A stretch of 64,000 nucleotides of DNA from positions 1 to 64,000 of the forward strand of contig JAOQAG010000005.1 in NCBI GenBank assembly GCA_025963715.1. Direction: 5' to 3'. Below the pieces are notes generated by a model, which was given only the letters and a program-made list of their open reading frames with translations, did no database searches and was not told the origin of the DNA. The position numbers and the translations under genes were made by a program. The stretch's first letter is position 1. Every line of letters starts with the position of its first letter. This DNA is from Bacteroidota bacterium. GTDB lineage: Bacteria > Bacteroidota > Bacteroidia > 2-12-FULL-35-15. Shown here one piece after another: positions 13,683 through 24,595 of this stretch.

Positions 13683-13726
13683 ATTTACCACTAAGGGCAC
13701 TAAGATCACTAAGGAAAAAGAAGAAA

Positions 13727-13838
13727 GCCACAGATTCACAGATTTTTAAAAGTAAAATTATTCTTCAGATTAAATCGCAAAGCGATTTTGCCGATCCTTG
13801 TATTCCTTTTTTAATTTTTTAATCTGTGAATCTGTGGC
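13727..13838. repeat. Inverted repeat: GCCACAGATTCACAGATTTTTAA arms
   Basis: The left arm GCCACAGATTCACAGATT and the right arm AATCTGTGAATCTGTGGC are perfect complements about 75 bases apart. An inner ATCGCAAAGCGAT palindrome lies between them. A second copy with the same arms and inner stem lies at 35959-36078. Both follow plus-strand genes. Confidence 0.85.
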
Positions 13839-13858
13839 GGCTTAACTCGCATTTTTTT

Positions 13859-13951
13859 GCCACATAAGGCACAAAATAATGTAACATACCAATGTTATTA
13901 CATGCTTAACGGGTATTGCCTTATGTGTTCCTTTGTGCCTTATGTGGTGGC
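13859..13951. repeat. Inverted repeat: GCCACATAAGGCACA arms
   Basis: GCCACATAAGGCAC and GTGCCTTATGTGG arms enclose GTAACATACCAATGTTATTAC, itself an imperfect palindrome. Single-arm relatives occur at 45015-45045, 53933-53963 and 61616-61646. Confidence 0.8.
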
Positions 13952-13976
13952 CGTTTCTTTTCATTTTTTATCTGTG

Positions 13977-13994
13977 TCCCGATAGCTATCGGGG
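13977..13994. repeat. TCCCGATAGCTATCGGGG palindrome
   Basis: Near-perfect 18-bp palindrome between the inverted repeat and the promoter of the next operon. It is a common intergenic palindrome in Bacteroidota. Confidence 0.7.
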
Positions 13995-14040
13995 CTGTGG
14001 CAACCGCTTTTTAATAATTTGTTAATTCCCCGCATTTAAT

Positions 14041-14070
14041 TTTGATTAAATAAAAATTGGTATATATTTA
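14041..14070 (+). promoter_or_regulatory. Candidate promoter of the ferritin-like/MNIO operon
   Basis: TTTG (14041-14044), an 18-base spacer and TATATTTA (14063-14070) match the Bacteroidota -33/-7 pattern with one deviation at the last base. This predicts a leader of about 180 nt before the ATG at 14258. Confidence 0.45.
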
Positions 14071-14134
14071 CCACATCACTTCCTGCTGTTTCTTATTATA
14101 AGTTATAAGATTAGCAACACATACGCGTTGTAAC

Positions 14135-14221
14135 CTACTCCGTTACTCCGTAAGATAAACCGGCAACATCTCCTGTAAATGGTTTGTATTCTGCAGCAGC
14201 ATTTTTGGCATTTTCAATCAT
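14135..14221 (-). CDS. Possible 28-residue peptide divergent from the MNIO operon
   Basis: On the minus strand, MIENAKNAAAEYKPFTGDVA continues with GLSYGVTE and a stop. The composition is protein-like (no runs, mixed acidic, basic and aromatic residues) although it lies in the leader of the ferritin-like gene. It could be a degenerate gene fragment or a small peptide. There is no cysteine, so it does not resemble a classical MNIO precursor. Confidence 0.25.
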   Translation of the reverse strand: MIENAKNAAAEYKPFTGDVAGLSYGVTE

Positions 14222-14257
14222 ACTATTAATTTAACTAACTAACCCCAAAATCAGTTT

Positions 14258-16333
14258 ATGAAAAAACCAGCACATGACAAGTCCGCGCTTTTTGATCGCG
14301 ACCCCTCTCATTTCGAAACCGACAAAGCTGCGGTAGAAGCCATCGTTCAGGCGGCAGTAAATGTGGAATTGTTTACCATTCCATTGTACATGACCAGCCT
14401 GTACTCCCTGCAGGGTGTTCACCAGATCAACAGCAAAGGAAGCGATATGTATAAAGGCCGCGTATGGCCGGGATTAGCGCCAAGCTTTAAACCGGGCTCG
14501 CTGGGCAATGTTCCTGAAAACGAAAAAGCATTCAATACTATTTTCAGTGTGTTTATTGAAGAGATGCTGCACTTGCAAATTGCATCCAACCTTGCCAATA
14601 TTTTAAAAGTAAAACCGACATTTACACAAATGTCGACCAAGGCTGATCATTACGCATGGTCGTGTTACGGAGATGACAAAACCGAGATCCCGTACATTCT
14701 TGATTTCCGGGATTGCAAACCGCCTTATGATAAAATAAAAGTAAAGCTGGATAAATTATCGCTGGAGCAAAACGAATTGTTCCTTGCTATTGAAGCGCCG
14801 GAAAATGATGAGCCGGGAAAAACATCCGCCATTGAGCGAATCAAAGACAATGCATCGGAACGCATCCACCCGTATTTTCCTTCGGTACCCCTGAAGAACT
14901 GGAAAAAAGGCGATAAGCTGCCGATGTTCGGTTCCATTGGTGCCATGTACCAATGCCTGTGGGATTATTTTGATATGGAATACAAAGCAAAAGATGGAAC
15001 GGTTACCACGCTGTGGGAAAAAATGTATTGTTCCGCTACATTGCAACGCGATCTGTTTAACGTTACTTCTAAAAGCCATCCATACAGGGAATACCAGGGA
15101 TTGGAAACAAAAGTGGAAGGCTGGTTACCGCCTGCAGCAAAAGAAATGGCGTTTAAATTAATTTGCGCGATCACCGATCAGGGCGAAGGAAAAGGAATCA
15201 GTAAAAACATCCGCCCTAGCCCGAACATATTAAAAGCAGTAGCACCGGTAAACCAGGCATCGGACATTGCATTGAAAAAAGATTATCCTTCTTACAATGA
15301 TGAAGGAAAAGAAGTTCCATCTGCAAAAGCACATGCCCGTTTTGGAAACGGAGCAGAAGATCACTACGAGCGTTTCCTTGCGATAAAAACCGATCTGGAA
15401 TCGAACAAAATTGTAACCTGGGACGAGTGGAGAGCCGGTGAAACCAACAAATGGAAAGCAAAAGACCTGGAAGGACATGGGTATGATCCGAAATATAATA
15501 ATTTGCCGACTGCCGAAAAAATTGCAGCAGCATTGAATCGACTTGCTAATCCAACAAAAGCGGACGGCACGCCGGACAAAGAAAAACAAAAAGCGAATTA
15601 TAAACAATTCTGTCAGATTGCTACCGGCGCCATTGCCGGGATTACAACCGTGCTGGATGATTATTGGAAAGATGCAGCAGTTGGTTTTCCGTTCCCATCT
15701 ATGGGCGGTTCCGGCGATCGTTTGATGATGTGCTGGGCGGTATTTGGTAAAGTGCCTGATCTTTCAGTAGGTATACAACCGCGCCTGAAAGATAAATTAT
15801 ACCATGCCTGCCAGGGAATGGATCTCACAAATGATTTAACTACGGTGGATAATATTTGCGGTTCGCCGGAAGTATACCACAATTGCAAAGGCTCCAATTC
15901 CTGTAAAGCCGAAGGCGGCTGCGGATTTGTGCAGCAGGTGGGCCAGTCGCAATCCTGCGGTGGCAGCAGCAGCGTAGCAATATTGCAGGCGCGTGACGGT
16001 GTGGAGTTAACTGCTGCTTACAGCGCTCCTGCGGATAATATCTGCAAAAGCTTTGGTGGCTGTGCGGTTCCTATTTCGGCATCGCAGATCTATCCTGATT
16101 TTGAGAACACGCAAAAAATGGCGAATGTTGGCGCTATGGAATTGAATGATTTTGTAGGTAAAGATCATAAAACGGTAAAAATACCAAATGCAAAACTGGA
16201 ATTTAAATCGGGTGATTATGTATACGATGTTGCCTGGAAAGCGTACACCGAAGTGTTGAAGCACCGTAAAAAAACGGTACCGGCAATGCCGGAACCAAGC
16301 GATATCCGTTTGGCATTTCCTCCATCCACCTAG
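14258..16333 (+). CDS. Ferritin-like protein (VioB/iminophenyl-pyruvate dimer synthase family) with internal Cys-rich segment
   Basis: 691 residues, no signal peptide. The N-terminal ferritin-like domain (PF12902 type, about residues 20-330) shows [18 protein letters not shown] with Glu37 and [14 protein letters not shown] with Glu101/102 and His105, consistent with a diiron-type E...EExxH site. Near the C-terminus (residues 534-602) is a cysteine-rich stretch: C543-K-G-S-N-S-C549-K-A-E-G-G-C555-G, then C567, and later C596-K-S-F-G-G-C602-A-V-P. The C-terminus ends RLAFPPST, as in VioB-like relatives. Fourteen bases later starts a DUF692 iron oxygenase, whose known substrates carry cysteine motifs of the EGKCG kind. 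I infer that this protein is both a diiron enzyme or scaffold and the substrate of the modification enzymes. It is much longer than known MNIO precursors. Confidence 0.85.
15857..16066 (+). other. Cysteine-rich candidate modification segment within the ferritin-like protein
   Basis: Codons 534-602 encode seven cysteines (534, 543, 549, 555, 567, 596, 602) in two clusters with CK..GGC repeats. The first cluster contains E-G-G-C-G, one residue off the EGKCG motif modified in bufferins by MNIO enzymes (family knowledge). Outside this segment the protein has few cysteines. Confidence 0.6.
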
Positions 16334-16347
16334 TTTGCAGAATTGAT

Positions 16348-17271
16348 ATGACTACAACAAATGCACATCGCCTTGGCCTTCCCAATTTAGGGTTAGGCCT
16401 TGGCTTACGCAGTAAACATTATGATTACCTGCTGAAGCACGATCCGATAGTGGATTGGTTTGAGATCATCAGTGAGAATTACATGAACAACTTTGGTTTT
16501 GCAAGGCATGTGCTGGAGCATATCGCCAATGTAAAACCGGTGGTGATGCATGGCGTTTCTATGTCGATCGGCAGCACCGATCCGCTGAACATGGAATATC
16601 TGAAACAACTGAAAGAGCTGGCTGCATTTGTAAAACCGGCCTGGATCTCCGATCATTTATGCTGGACAGGTGTGGCGCATATGAATACGCACGACCTGTT
16701 GCCACTACCGCTTACGCTGGAAAGCCTGAAACATGTGGCTGAACGTGTGAACCGCGTGCAGGATTTTTTAGAGCGTCCTTTAATTTTAGAAAACCCATCC
16801 ACGTACATGGAGTTCGAAGATTCCACCTTGCATGAATGGGAATTTTTATCGGAGCTGGTAAATCAAACCGGCTGTGGCTTGTTGCTGGATGTGAACAACG
16901 TATTTGTATCGGGGCACAACCATGGTTTTGATCCCGAATTTTATATCCGCAACATTCCGCACAAAGCGGTGGTGCAGATCCACATTGCAGGCCCAACCGA
17001 TTGCGGCCCGCTGCTGATCGATACACACGACCAGCCTGTACCAACGGAAGTCTGGAAATTGTATCGCCTGGCGCAGGAGCTTACCGGCGGCGTTTCTACT
17101 TTATTGGAATGGGATGCCAACATTCCGGATTACCCTGAAATGGTGCTGGAAGTAGAGAAAGCAAAAAAAGTAATGCTGGGCGAATTACCCGACGTTGCTA
17201 TTTTTCAATCGCAGCATCCGGAAGTAATTTCCAACCCGATCGATCATCAAATGCAGGCGGCGCATGAATAA
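16348..17271 (+). CDS. DUF692 multinuclear non-heme iron-dependent oxidative enzyme (MNIO)
   Basis: 307 residues with a TIM-barrel of the MbnB/TglH/BufB family. Predicted metal ligands are all in place: E39/E43 region ([10 protein letters not shown]), H68 ([11 protein letters not shown]), D102-H103 (SDHLCW), E148-N149 ([11 protein letters not shown]), D181-N183 ([10 protein letters not shown]), H190/H192, H212 (QIHIAG), D225/H227 (IDTHDQPV) and E254 (LLEWDANIP). Known members use two or three irons and O2 to rearrange cysteine residues in peptides (oxazolone/thioamide, 5-thiooxazole or carbon excision). It lies 14 bases after the ferritin-like gene and overlaps the DUF2063 gene by eight bases, so it is translationally coupled. 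Confidence 0.95.
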
Positions 17272-18103
17272 GCTGGAAACCACGCAGCGCTGGCTCACGT
17301 CCATCATTATCCGGCCCGGCCGTTTGCACGATAAAATTTCTGCAGCCGATAAAACCTATCAACTGGATACGGAAAAAATGATTCGTACTTCCGCGACATT
17401 ATCGCCGGAAAACAGGATCAGCGTATATGCACGCGGATATGTGCTGCGCCTGATGGAATGCATGCGTGCGGATTACCCGGTATTGCTGCATTTGTTGGGA
17501 GAAGAATTGTTCAACAGTTTTGTACAGGCGTATTTGGTAAATGTTCCTTCGCATTCGCCGAGCTTGTATGACCTTGGAGAAAATTTTCCGGCATTTTTAA
17601 AAGCATCGCAACCACAACAAAATGAAGATGCGGAAATGTTTGATCTGCCAGTAGAATTGGCCCAGGTGGAACGCACACGGGTGGAAGTGGAGCGGAGTAA
17701 GGGATTGGAAACAGAACAAACGGCTAATTCAGACGATTCGCTTTTTCATTTTTTAGGAACCTCCAATTATAATGTATCGCCTTGTTTGCGTTTGCTGCAA
17801 TTGCAATACGAGCTACTGGATTTTATAAAAGCCGTAGAACGCGGAAAAGAAGCTGAAACACCGGAGCGAAAAATAAATTATTTAGCGATCAGCCGGAAAA
17901 ATTATGCAGTGAATTTGCAGCAGCTGGAAGCCTGGCAATTCTACTATTTAAAAGCATTGGCAATAACCGGGGATCACAATGCAGCTGTAAAAATAGCGGC
18001 AACTGAAAGCGGGATCCCGGAAGAAAGCATCATGGCGGATCTGCTTTTATGGATCCCGGTAGCAATGGAATACGGTTACGTGTTTTTGGATGACAGATTT
18101 TAG
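17264..18103 (+). CDS. DUF2063 (BufC/TglI-type) partner of the MNIO enzyme
   Basis: 279 residues. The N-terminal half carries the DUF2063 pattern [32 protein letters not shown] and [13 protein letters not shown]. In characterised systems this domain binds the leader or core peptide and presents it to the DUF692 enzyme. The middle (residues 120-160) is a variable acidic insertion, and the C-terminal half ([20 protein letters not shown]) corresponds to the second helical domain. The start codon lies within the end of the MNIO gene. It is the last gene of the operon and is followed immediately by an inverted repeat. Confidence 0.92.
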
Positions 18104-23027: not shown

Positions 23028-23049
23028 ATTTTTATTGTCATTGCAATCA

Positions 23050-23994
23050 ATGGAAAAATTAAGATCATTAGAAATATGTGCGGGAGCGGGTGGTCAGGCC
23101 TTAGGTATTGAGCAGGCCGGATTTGAACATTTGGCATTAGTCGAAATTGAACCTTTGGCATGCGAAACATTACGCATTAATAAGCCTAAATGGAATGTAT
23201 ATCAATGCGATGTAAAAAAATTTAGTGCAACAGCCTATAAAGGAAAAGTTGATCTTTTTGCAGGAGGTGTGCCTTGTCCTCCGTTTTCGAAAGCTGGTAA
23301 GCAATTAGGTCATTTAGATGACCGGGATTTATTTCCGGAAGCGCTTCGCCTGATTAAAGAATGCAATCCCAAAGCAATATTACTGGAAAATGTACGGGGC
23401 TTATTAGACCCTAAATTTTCGGAATACCGTGACGAAATTATTTTTGAATTGCAAAAGTTAGGATATGATAGTACCTGGAAATTATTGAATTCATCTGATT
23501 ATGGTGTATCCCAACTTCGGCCCAGAGCAATTTTAGTAGCATTGAAAAAAAAATATTTCAAAAAATTCGAATGGCCTTTAGCGACGAAAAAAAAACCTGT
23601 ATCAATTGGTGAGCTACTGTATACTGAAATGGCTCAGTTTGGATGGAAAGAAGTGGAACAATGGAAACAAAAAGCAAATAAAATCGGGCCAACACTTGTG
23701 GGAGGATCTAAAAAACACGGCGGTGCAGATTTAGGTCCAACAAGAGCAAAAAAGGCCTGGGCAGAGCTATCAGTGGATGGTAAAGGCCTTGCAGATGCAG
23801 CTCCTTTAAAAAATTTTAAAGGTAATCCAAGATTAACGTTAAAAATGACGGCCCTCGTTCAGGGGTTCCCAAATAATTGGGAGTTTGTAGGAAAAAAAAC
23901 GCCTGCTTACAGGCAAGTTGGAAATGCTTTTCCTCCACCTGTTGCAAAAGCTGTGGGAAAAGCAATATTAAAAGCGCTACATGATGGAAAATAA
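23050..23994 (+). CDS. DNA (cytosine-5) methyltransferase
   Basis: 314 residues from the ATG at 23050. A TTG 15 bases upstream is an alternative start. C5-MTase motifs run in order: I (LEICAGAGGQALG, SAM site), IV (AGGVPCPPFSKAG with nucleophile Cys76), VI (LLENVRGL), VIII (QLRPRAILVAL), a short target-recognition region with VGGSKKHGGADLG, and X (YRQVGNAFPPPVAKAVG). It should methylate a short palindromic or near-palindromic site and protect it from the overlapping HNH endonuclease. The specificity cannot be read from sequence. The final codons overlap the endonuclease by 14 bases. Confidence 0.95.
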   Translation: MEKLRSLEICAGAGGQALGIEQAGFEHLALVEIEPLACETLRINKPKWNVYQCDVKKFSATAYKGKVDLFAGGVPCPPFSKAGKQLGHLDDRDLFPEALRLIKECNPKAILLENVRGLLDPKFSEYRDEIIFELQKLGYDSTWKLLNSSDYGVSQLRPRAILVALKKKYFKKFEWPLATKKKPVSIGELLYTEMAQFGWKEVEQWKQKANKIGPTLVGGSKKHGGADLGPTRAKKAWAELSVDGKGLADAAPLKNFKGNPRLTLKMTALVQGFPNNWEFVGKKTPAYRQVGNAFPPPVAKAVGKAILKALHDGK

Positions 23995-24595
23995 AGAAAA
24001 GGCACCAAAGAGGAAAGGAGCAAGACTTAAGCTTAGAGAATATTTTATCGCAAATGTTGGTAAAGTATTGGATTCTAAAACACTTCAGGGTGTAGCTGAA
24101 GGAAGTAGTGAATGGGGAAGGCGTGTCAGAGAATTAAGAAATGAGGAAGGGATGAATATTGTAACACACAATGATCTCAGTGAGTTAAAGCCCGGGCAAT
24201 ATATGTTAGTGAATTTAAAACCGATGCCTGCTTTTGAAAGAGGCATTTCTAAGGAAACACGGGCTTTTGTTTTGGATCGGAACGGATTCACTTGTCAGAT
24301 GTGTGGAGCCGCCGCCGGTGAGCCCAATCCATTTGATAGTAACAGAAAGACACGATTACATATCGGACATATCATTGATAAGTCGATGGGAGGAACCGAT
24401 ACTGCTAATAATCTGAGAGCTATCTGCTCTGTCTGCAATGAAGGCGCTTCCAACTTAACGCTTAACCGGCCGGATGCAATCAAACTGATCGCTCAGGTTA
24501 GAAGAGCACCTAACAAAGATCAACTGGATGTTTTGGAATGGCTTATTAAAAAATTTCCGGAACAATCACTAAAATTTTCTGCTAAGAAAATTTAA
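23981..24595 (+). CDS. HNH endonuclease, probable type II restriction enzyme
   Basis: 204 residues. An N-terminal winged-helix-like module (LREYFIANVGKVLDSKTLQ ... SSEWGRRVRELRNEEGM) is followed by ELKPGQYML and an HNH domain: C-Q-M-C zinc knuckle, LHIGHIIDKS (catalytic His), DTANNLRAIC and C-S-V-C-N. This arrangement is found in restriction endonucleases encoded beside C5 methyltransferases. It overlaps the methyltransferase by 14 bases (coupled), so the pair forms a complete R-M system. It lies directly outside the left att repeat of the adjoining element. Confidence 0.85.
   Translation: MMENKEKAPKRKGARLKLREYFIANVGKVLDSKTLQGVAEGSSEWGRRVRELRNEEGMNIVTHNDLSELKPGQYMLVNLKPMPAFERGISKETRAFVLDRNGFTCQMCGAAAGEPNPFDSNRKTRLHIGHIIDKSMGGTDTANNLRAICSVCNEGASNLTLNRPDAIKLIAQVRRAPNKDQLDVLEWLIKKFPEQSLKFSAKKI

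Follow-up and report, generated by a model that had tools for sequence, protein, structure and literature searches.

BufA2 bufferins are a known family of MNIO precursors, which carry the motif CKGxNxCKGxGGC; the Buf_EGKCG/oxazolin (captophorin) group has EGKCG as its Lys-Cys motif. In known systems with a PME-type 1 partner the product is 5-thiooxazole, which binds copper (PMC13097082, PMC12452194); as stated in PMC12452194, precursors with signal peptides accompany PME-type 1 partners, while precursors lacking them do not. Besides short precursors, Antoine et al. 2025 (PMC12452194) predicted in silico long precursors as well as fusions with bufferin domains: Buf1/cytochrome c/FGE-sulfatase, MerC/Buf1 and MerC/Buf2.

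The window (the whole stretch of 64,000 nucleotides analyzed here) encodes a 691-aa protein in which a ferritin-like part is joined to a Cys-rich segment, our candidate for an internal MNIO substrate; genes for an MNIO and a DUF2063 protein follow (Table 1). With BufA2/Buf2 (Cys-Lys captophorins, NF050166) this locus shares the CKGxNxCKGxG motif, the Cx5Cx5C spacing (C543/C549/C555 in the window), the gene order precursor-MNIO-DUF2063 and, through a protein encoded separately in other genomes (see below), profile similarity. Unlike BufA2, the window segment has no apparent Sec signal peptide, is internal to a 691-aa ferritin-like protein and falls below the NCBIfam cut-off; also, the cassette contains no DoxX gene. 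As in the bufferin-domain fusions of PMC12452194, a bufferin-like domain is joined to a larger protein; however, the partner domain in the fusions described there is not ferritin-like, and in the MerC fusions the bufferin domain is C-terminal and on the periplasmic side, unlike the internal segment of the window. The Buf_EGKCG/oxazolin group (Lys-Cys captophorins) has in common with the window an MNIO with a PME-type 1 partner and Cys residues in short Gly-rich motifs, but the window has no EGKCG repeat and the conserved motif is CKGxNxCK.

An earlier note on this DNA had compared the EGGCG string of the segment with the EGKCG motif of bufferins, one residue away. This parallel has to be dropped: Glu is replaced by Gln in five of the 15 listed homologues (L008-L012), EGKCG is absent from the 691-aa protein and paired EGKCG from the genome; the real relative is BufA2. 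The same note placed the MNIO targets known to date in short peptides, a statement to be narrowed given the long precursors and bufferin-domain fusions already predicted in silico (PMC12452194). What appears to be new, judging by sequence and by the fusions described in that paper, is the joining of a ferritin-like and a bufferin-like part. The words ‘ferritin’ and ‘VioB’ are absent from its main text. A full-text literature search, with supplementary tables outside its reach, found no MNIO together with a ferritin-like protein; DUF692 and ferritin-like were co-mentioned only through a reference title, none of the matches listed combined VioB or iminophenyl with DUF692/MNIO, and, for PF12902, the passages of one paper were unrelated to MNIO.

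Table 1. Coordinates in the window of the fused gene, its parts and the two genes downstream
Feature	Position	Strand	Description
Fused protein, 691 aa	14258..16333	+	Ferritin-like PF12902 N-terminal part, BufA2-like Cys-rich segment, conserved C-terminal region
Ferritin-like domain, residues 30-314	14345..15199	+	Pfam PF12902
Cys-rich segment, residues 518-602, proposed internal BufA2-like MNIO substrate	15809..16063	+	
Core motif, Cx5Cx5C, residues 540-558	15875..15931	+	
Second conserved block, residues 588-612	16019..16093	+	16/25 positions invariant (19 sequences)
C-terminal tail, residues 681-691	16298..16330	+	Nearly invariant (fused proteins)
MNIO (PF05114)	16348..17271	+	NCBIfam BufB bufferin maturase (NF050167): 354.6 bits vs cut-off 310
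DUF2063 (PF09836) partner, PME-type 1	17264..18103	+	Pfam 70.5 bits vs cut-off 27.2

Fused protein and conservation of its cysteines

Nucleotides 15857-16066 correspond to residues 534-603 of ORF 14258-16333, and the CKGxNxCKxxGGCG string of the earlier note to residues 543-556 of the 691-aa protein. The localized Cys-rich segment that was placed there, about 90 residues before the C-terminus, is real: it ends 88 residues before it, and seven of its cysteines are kept in all 19 fused homologues. Its description as clusters of cysteine pairs did not hold: the Cys of the segment are at least six positions apart, spaced Cx5Cx5C at 543/549/555 and Cx5C at 596/602, and CxC or CxxC knuckles are absent from it.

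Seven of the protein’s 15 Cys are located within 69 residues (534-602). When the residues of the protein were shuffled 20,000 times, 234 shuffles reached this density in any stretch of the same size; by itself, the Cys density is only moderately unusual. The Cys segment is more than chance because its cysteines are conserved across the fused homologues: C518, C543, C549, C555, C567, C596 and C602 are kept in 19/19 (window included; the rows are not independent, several being near-identical), C534 in 18/19 and C580 in 15/19, the last being lost in the window protein. Two further cysteines, C136 and C492, lie outside the segment and are likewise kept in 19/19. The 19 rows comprised the window, 15 relatives from a genome collection, G452, G468 and one (L028) of two Pseudoalteromonas records; L002 and L003 are one locus in two collections, and L003 alone was counted. 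An alignment of this kind had been suggested in the earlier note as a check, with non-conserved cysteines as the refuting outcome; among the 19 fused homologues this outcome was not found.

The conserved unit begins upstream of residue 534, at C518 (LYHACQG). The Pseudoalteromonas homologue is 36-37% identical to the window protein overall; by region, residues 534-569 and 588-612 reach 64% and 72%, versus 39% for 1-314 and 36% for 315-504, which sets two conserved blocks apart. In the 4.9-Mb genome, this gene is the only place with the DNA pattern for CKGxNxCK. The segment alone matches no Pfam or NCBIfam model.

The PF12902 match of the 691-aa protein scored 78.6 bits (Pfam cut-off 22.3), and a whole-genome search found no second PF12902 gene. 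The solved structure closest to the ferritin-like part is Caulobacter CC_0557 (PDB 3hl1); the PF12902 proteins CC_0557 and VioB share the ferritin-like domain with the window protein but have no Cys-rich segment aligned. E37, E102, H105, E179, E310 and H369 are conserved in all 15 aligned PF12902 proteins, including those with no MNIO nearby; with this putative ligand set looking intact, the ferritin-like part may be an active di-iron enzyme.

No signal peptide was apparent in a rough hydropathy analysis of the first 45 residues, and the product of the fused gene is probably cytoplasmic on this ground; the hydropathy peak in these residues was at most 1.97 in the 19 fused proteins and at most 1.12 in six separate proteins, as against 2.21-2.43 in four BufA2 proteins.

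The AlphaFold model of the whole 691-aa protein (14 sequences in the alignment) had a mean pLDDT of 61.7, and the model of the C-terminal 192 residues alone (13 sequences) 43.4. Residues 507-609 were under pLDDT 50 in the model, with no confident fold for the segment; this is compatible with an accessible loop, with an alignment so shallow as to say little on true disorder.

The fused proteins end exactly in SDIRL or SDVRM followed by xFPPST; the Pseudoalteromonas homologue ends in SDIRLALPPST. It is unusual for a tail to be fixed up to the very last residue; this one may be a recognition element or an active-site element.

MNIO, DUF2063 and distribution of the cassette

Only 14 bases separate the stop of the fused gene from the MNIO gene, and the DUF2063 gene overlaps the MNIO gene by 8 bases. 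As for an RRE domain in the DUF2063 protein, the HvfC model matched residues 48-256 at 54 bits, under its cut-off of 142. The MNIO of Table 1 is the one MNIO of the genome (whole-genome search).

One genome-collection scan gave 15 loci of relatives, and in 15/15 the fused gene is followed by MNIO and then DUF2063 (in L008 the DUF2063 match is spread over two frames). The two genes are also downstream of the fused gene in G452 and G468, which belong to the same phylum, and in both records of Pseudoalteromonas (Gammaproteobacteria). By eye, no further genes common to the surroundings of the cassette were seen in ten of the 15 loci. The cassette (14258-18103) is patchy: it is present in 2 of 99 close relatives and recurs in Chitinophaga, Mucilaginibacter, Adhaeribacter, an Ignavibacteria MAG and Pseudoalteromonas records of megaplasmid size, looking as if it had moved between lineages. 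Elsewhere in the window, at 23035-24595, a probable DNA cytosine methyltransferase gene precedes one with an HNH-like motif (both assigned by eye); the two resemble a restriction-modification pair.

Residues H68, H103, E148, D181, H212, D225, H227, E254 and D256 of the MNIO are conserved in 32/32 aligned MNIOs, and in our own alignment D256 of the window MNIO is matched to the catalytic base of FonB, named in PMC13097082. In a tree of these 32 sequences the MNIOs of the fused family form one clade (99/96), with the position of Pseudoalteromonas within it weakly supported (81/62); a wider clade (92/94) holds the fused family, the split family described below and two Bacteroidota BufA2 neighbours. 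The residue adjoining the catalytic Asp is reported as Phe in Lys-Cys and Asp in Cys-Lys enzymes (PMC13097082). At this position the fused family has Ala, the split family Ser/Gly/Asn and the BufA2 neighbours Asp/Glu/Gly; as a sequence guide to the MNIO type this residue does not decide.

We also looked for a precursor other than the segment. A hidden small gene between the fused gene and the MNIO gene was rejected, the gap being only 14 bases; upstream, 13683-14257 has no listed ORF of at least 60 aa except the antisense 14231-14422. No unlinked bufferin was found elsewhere in the genome by the BufA2 model, the DUF2282 model or paired EGKCG.

Separate homologues and the link to BufA2

In six Bacteroidota loci (L030-L034 found with a profile in 395 genomes of the phylum, L063 by a PF12902 search) the order is ferritin-like gene, separate Cys-rich gene, MNIO, DUF2063. 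The separate protein has about 190-230 aa, with at least 13 Cys in those counted; the one of L030 carries HVCMGLNACKG, HNCQTLNDCHGQGGCG and GANECGWQGSCAVPI and reads like the window segment. In hhalign, residues 510-625 of the fused form matched the separate protein over 92 columns, at a probability of 97% and a score of 55.4 to 56.7. Column shuffling (100 shuffles) reached no more than 14.5, and 100 further shuffles in which the Cys columns stayed fixed no more than 13.4; as even the latter is far below the real score, the likeness exceeds shared Cys spacing. The N-terminal parts of the fused and split forms align at 98% (hhalign). For the last 79 residues the match between fused and separate proteins was not significant (4 of 60 shuffles reached the real score), so homology is claimed for the Cys-rich part only.

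This gene split is, in our reading of the sequences, the strongest evidence for the segment being an MNIO substrate. The 395 genomes contain 17 PF12902 matches in 15 genomes, 15 of them over the cut-off, and all 17 neighbourhoods were inspected. Each of the nine PF12902 genes located beside MNIO and DUF2063 genes has the Cys element, fused in three (G000, G452, G468) and split in six; the element accompanies 0/8 of those with no adjacent MNIO (two of the eight, in G356 and G474, being under the PF12902 cut-off, and one, in G480, lying at a contig end). In L064, cut by its contig end, absence of MNIO is uncertain on one side. G256 and G409 have both kinds of PF12902 gene, one of either. When the same 395 genomes were searched with a profile of the separate protein, six strong matches resulted, exactly the six split loci; in this sample, therefore, the separate protein always comes with the ferritin-like and MNIO genes. 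The profile also gave weak matches in G472, G463, G349 and G267 (E 0.0026-0.0066).

The NCBIfam BufA2 model (NF050166) matched two separate proteins with E-values of 7e-4 and 2.3e-4 (19.8 and 21.3 bits), far under its cut-off of 60 bits, and gave no match in the window protein or the segment. The search with this model matched three of the split genomes and a G282 gene, L037 (49.4 bits, under the cut-off), which is BufA2-like and adjoins an MNIO; its matches in G103 and G180 were weak. For comparison we used four BufA2 precursors situated beside MNIO genes, drawn from the neighbours of MNIO matches: L037, L069 (Pseudomonas putida), L070 (Asticcacaulis) and L071 (Paraburkholderia). They carry CKGMNECKGKGGC, CFGVNGCKGQNDC, CYGINTCKGTADC and CYGVNACKGQALC, respectively, with Cx5Cx5C as in the window. 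The separate protein aligned with the four at 95.5% and a score of 48.7 (hhalign; shuffle maxima 10.9 and 20.5), and its profile detected the G282 gene at E 5.3e-6. The fused segment compared with BufA2 directly gave 25-29% and a score of 23.9 (shuffle maxima 11.7 and 12.5). As this direct match is weak, the link runs from the fused segment to the separate protein and from there to BufA2; the HMMER profile of the separate proteins misses the fused segment in G000.

DUF2282 was rejected as a relative, since neither the fused segment nor the separate protein showed similarity to it by hhalign; BufA2 and DUF2282 align to each other at 83%. With the proteins of L037 and L030 as queries, tblastn found no BufA2 relatives in a plasmid collection. 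Compared by published description (Table 2 of PMC12452194) rather than by sequence, adjamnio-I resembles the separate protein, whose length and Cys number lie within the ranges given for that family (122-293 and 8-21) and which likewise has no signal peptide; the partners listed there for adjamnio-I are PME-type 2, whereas those of L030 and L033 pass Pfam DUF2063.

Proposed modification and competing explanations

Taken together, the conserved cysteines, the gene order, the split genes and the association with MNIO make it most likely that the segment is an internal BufA2-like MNIO substrate. We hold it probable, with real room for doubt, that residues ~515-605 serve as a BufA2-type (Cys-Lys) substrate of the adjacent MNIO, with the proposed modification and metal binding. 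The MNIO with its DUF2063 partner would take the Cys segment as substrate in the cytoplasm and oxidize Cys of the Cx5Cx5C motif, most likely to 5-thiooxazole-type groups; the modified segment would then bind a soft metal such as copper, and the ferritin-like carrier would hold it in place or use the bound metal. Thus, the idea of an internal MNIO target, put forward in the earlier note, finds good support on the genomic side (conserved Cys, gene order, split homologues, association with MNIO); we infer the modification, the Cys and the chemistry involved, the binding of a metal and what the ferritin-like domain is for. Several sequence features count against it: the Ala beside the catalytic Asp in the fused-family MNIO, where Asp is reported for Cys-Lys enzymes; no signal peptide, unlike published bufferins; no Pfam or NCBIfam match of the segment alone; and C136 and C492, as conserved as the cysteines inside it.

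The ferritin-like part could instead be a second maturation enzyme acting on the Cys peptide, fused here with its substrate, with the MNIO acting in trans. It is indeed a separate gene of the same cluster in six loci, and its putative metal ligands, present in 15/15 proteins whether or not an MNIO is nearby, look like those of an active enzyme. Fusion of an enzyme with its core peptide is known in borosins. We still regard this as rather improbable: MNIO-less relatives adjoin other oxidoreductases, so the domain has other roles too, and simple bufferin clusters, as described in PMC12452194, need no second enzyme.

Could the segment be no more than a structural or metal-binding cluster of Cys, or form disulfides, with the MNIO modifying something else? 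A metal site too would need conserved Cys, C136 and C492 are equally conserved, and residues 507-609, having no confident AlphaFold fold, offer no geometry against such a site. A cytoplasmic protein, however, is unlikely to need stable disulfides, and the segment lacks CxC or CxxC knuckles. Moreover, the Cys element tracks the MNIO gene and not the ferritin-like domain (9/9 versus 0/8), the segment is related to a precursor family (BufA2), and the genome yielded no other precursor among the three known kinds searched; we consider a plain site unlikely.

The segment might also stay unmodified throughout and serve as an adaptor, passing iron or copper on to the ferritin-like domain or the MNIO. 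This would agree with the metal needed by both enzyme parts and with the strict association, but is very improbable, as it leaves unexplained both the relation of the separate protein to BufA2 and the DUF2063 partner, a protein described as handling precursors (PMC12452194, PMC13097082).

If the segment is indeed an internal MNIO substrate, then MNIO enzymes would not be limited to short or exported copper-binding peptides; their groups would be installed on a segment inside a large cytoplasmic protein, which suggests a route to protein cofactors. The locus would be an exception to the correlation between PME-type 1 partners and signal peptides described in PMC12452194, and a system for asking how the MNIO complex recognizes a substrate devoid of a signal peptide; the split and fused forms offer a natural comparison for expression tests. 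One could speculate, tentatively, on a cytoplasmic enzyme-substrate fusion in which a di-iron ferritin-like protein carries its own MNIO-made thiooxazole metal centre as an internal loop. In that case a peptide-modification system would build a new metal cofactor inside a folded enzyme and not in a secreted peptide.

Some neighbours of PF12902 genes deserve mention. The MNIO-less PF12902 gene of L061 (6779-8713) lies beside a GMC oxidoreductase, and genes with a similar start adjoin the MNIO-less PF12902 genes of L062 and L064, as if a different partner system were present. A thiamine-pyrophosphate decarboxylase-like gene is situated upstream in three of the six split loci (L031 1803-5594, L033 52-1797, L032 10921-12639; assigned by Pfam in L031 and L033 and from the sequence start alone in L032), and L031 also has a flavin amine oxidase. 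Combined with a VioB-like ferritin protein, these genes recall amino-acid oxidizing pathways and hint at a larger cluster.
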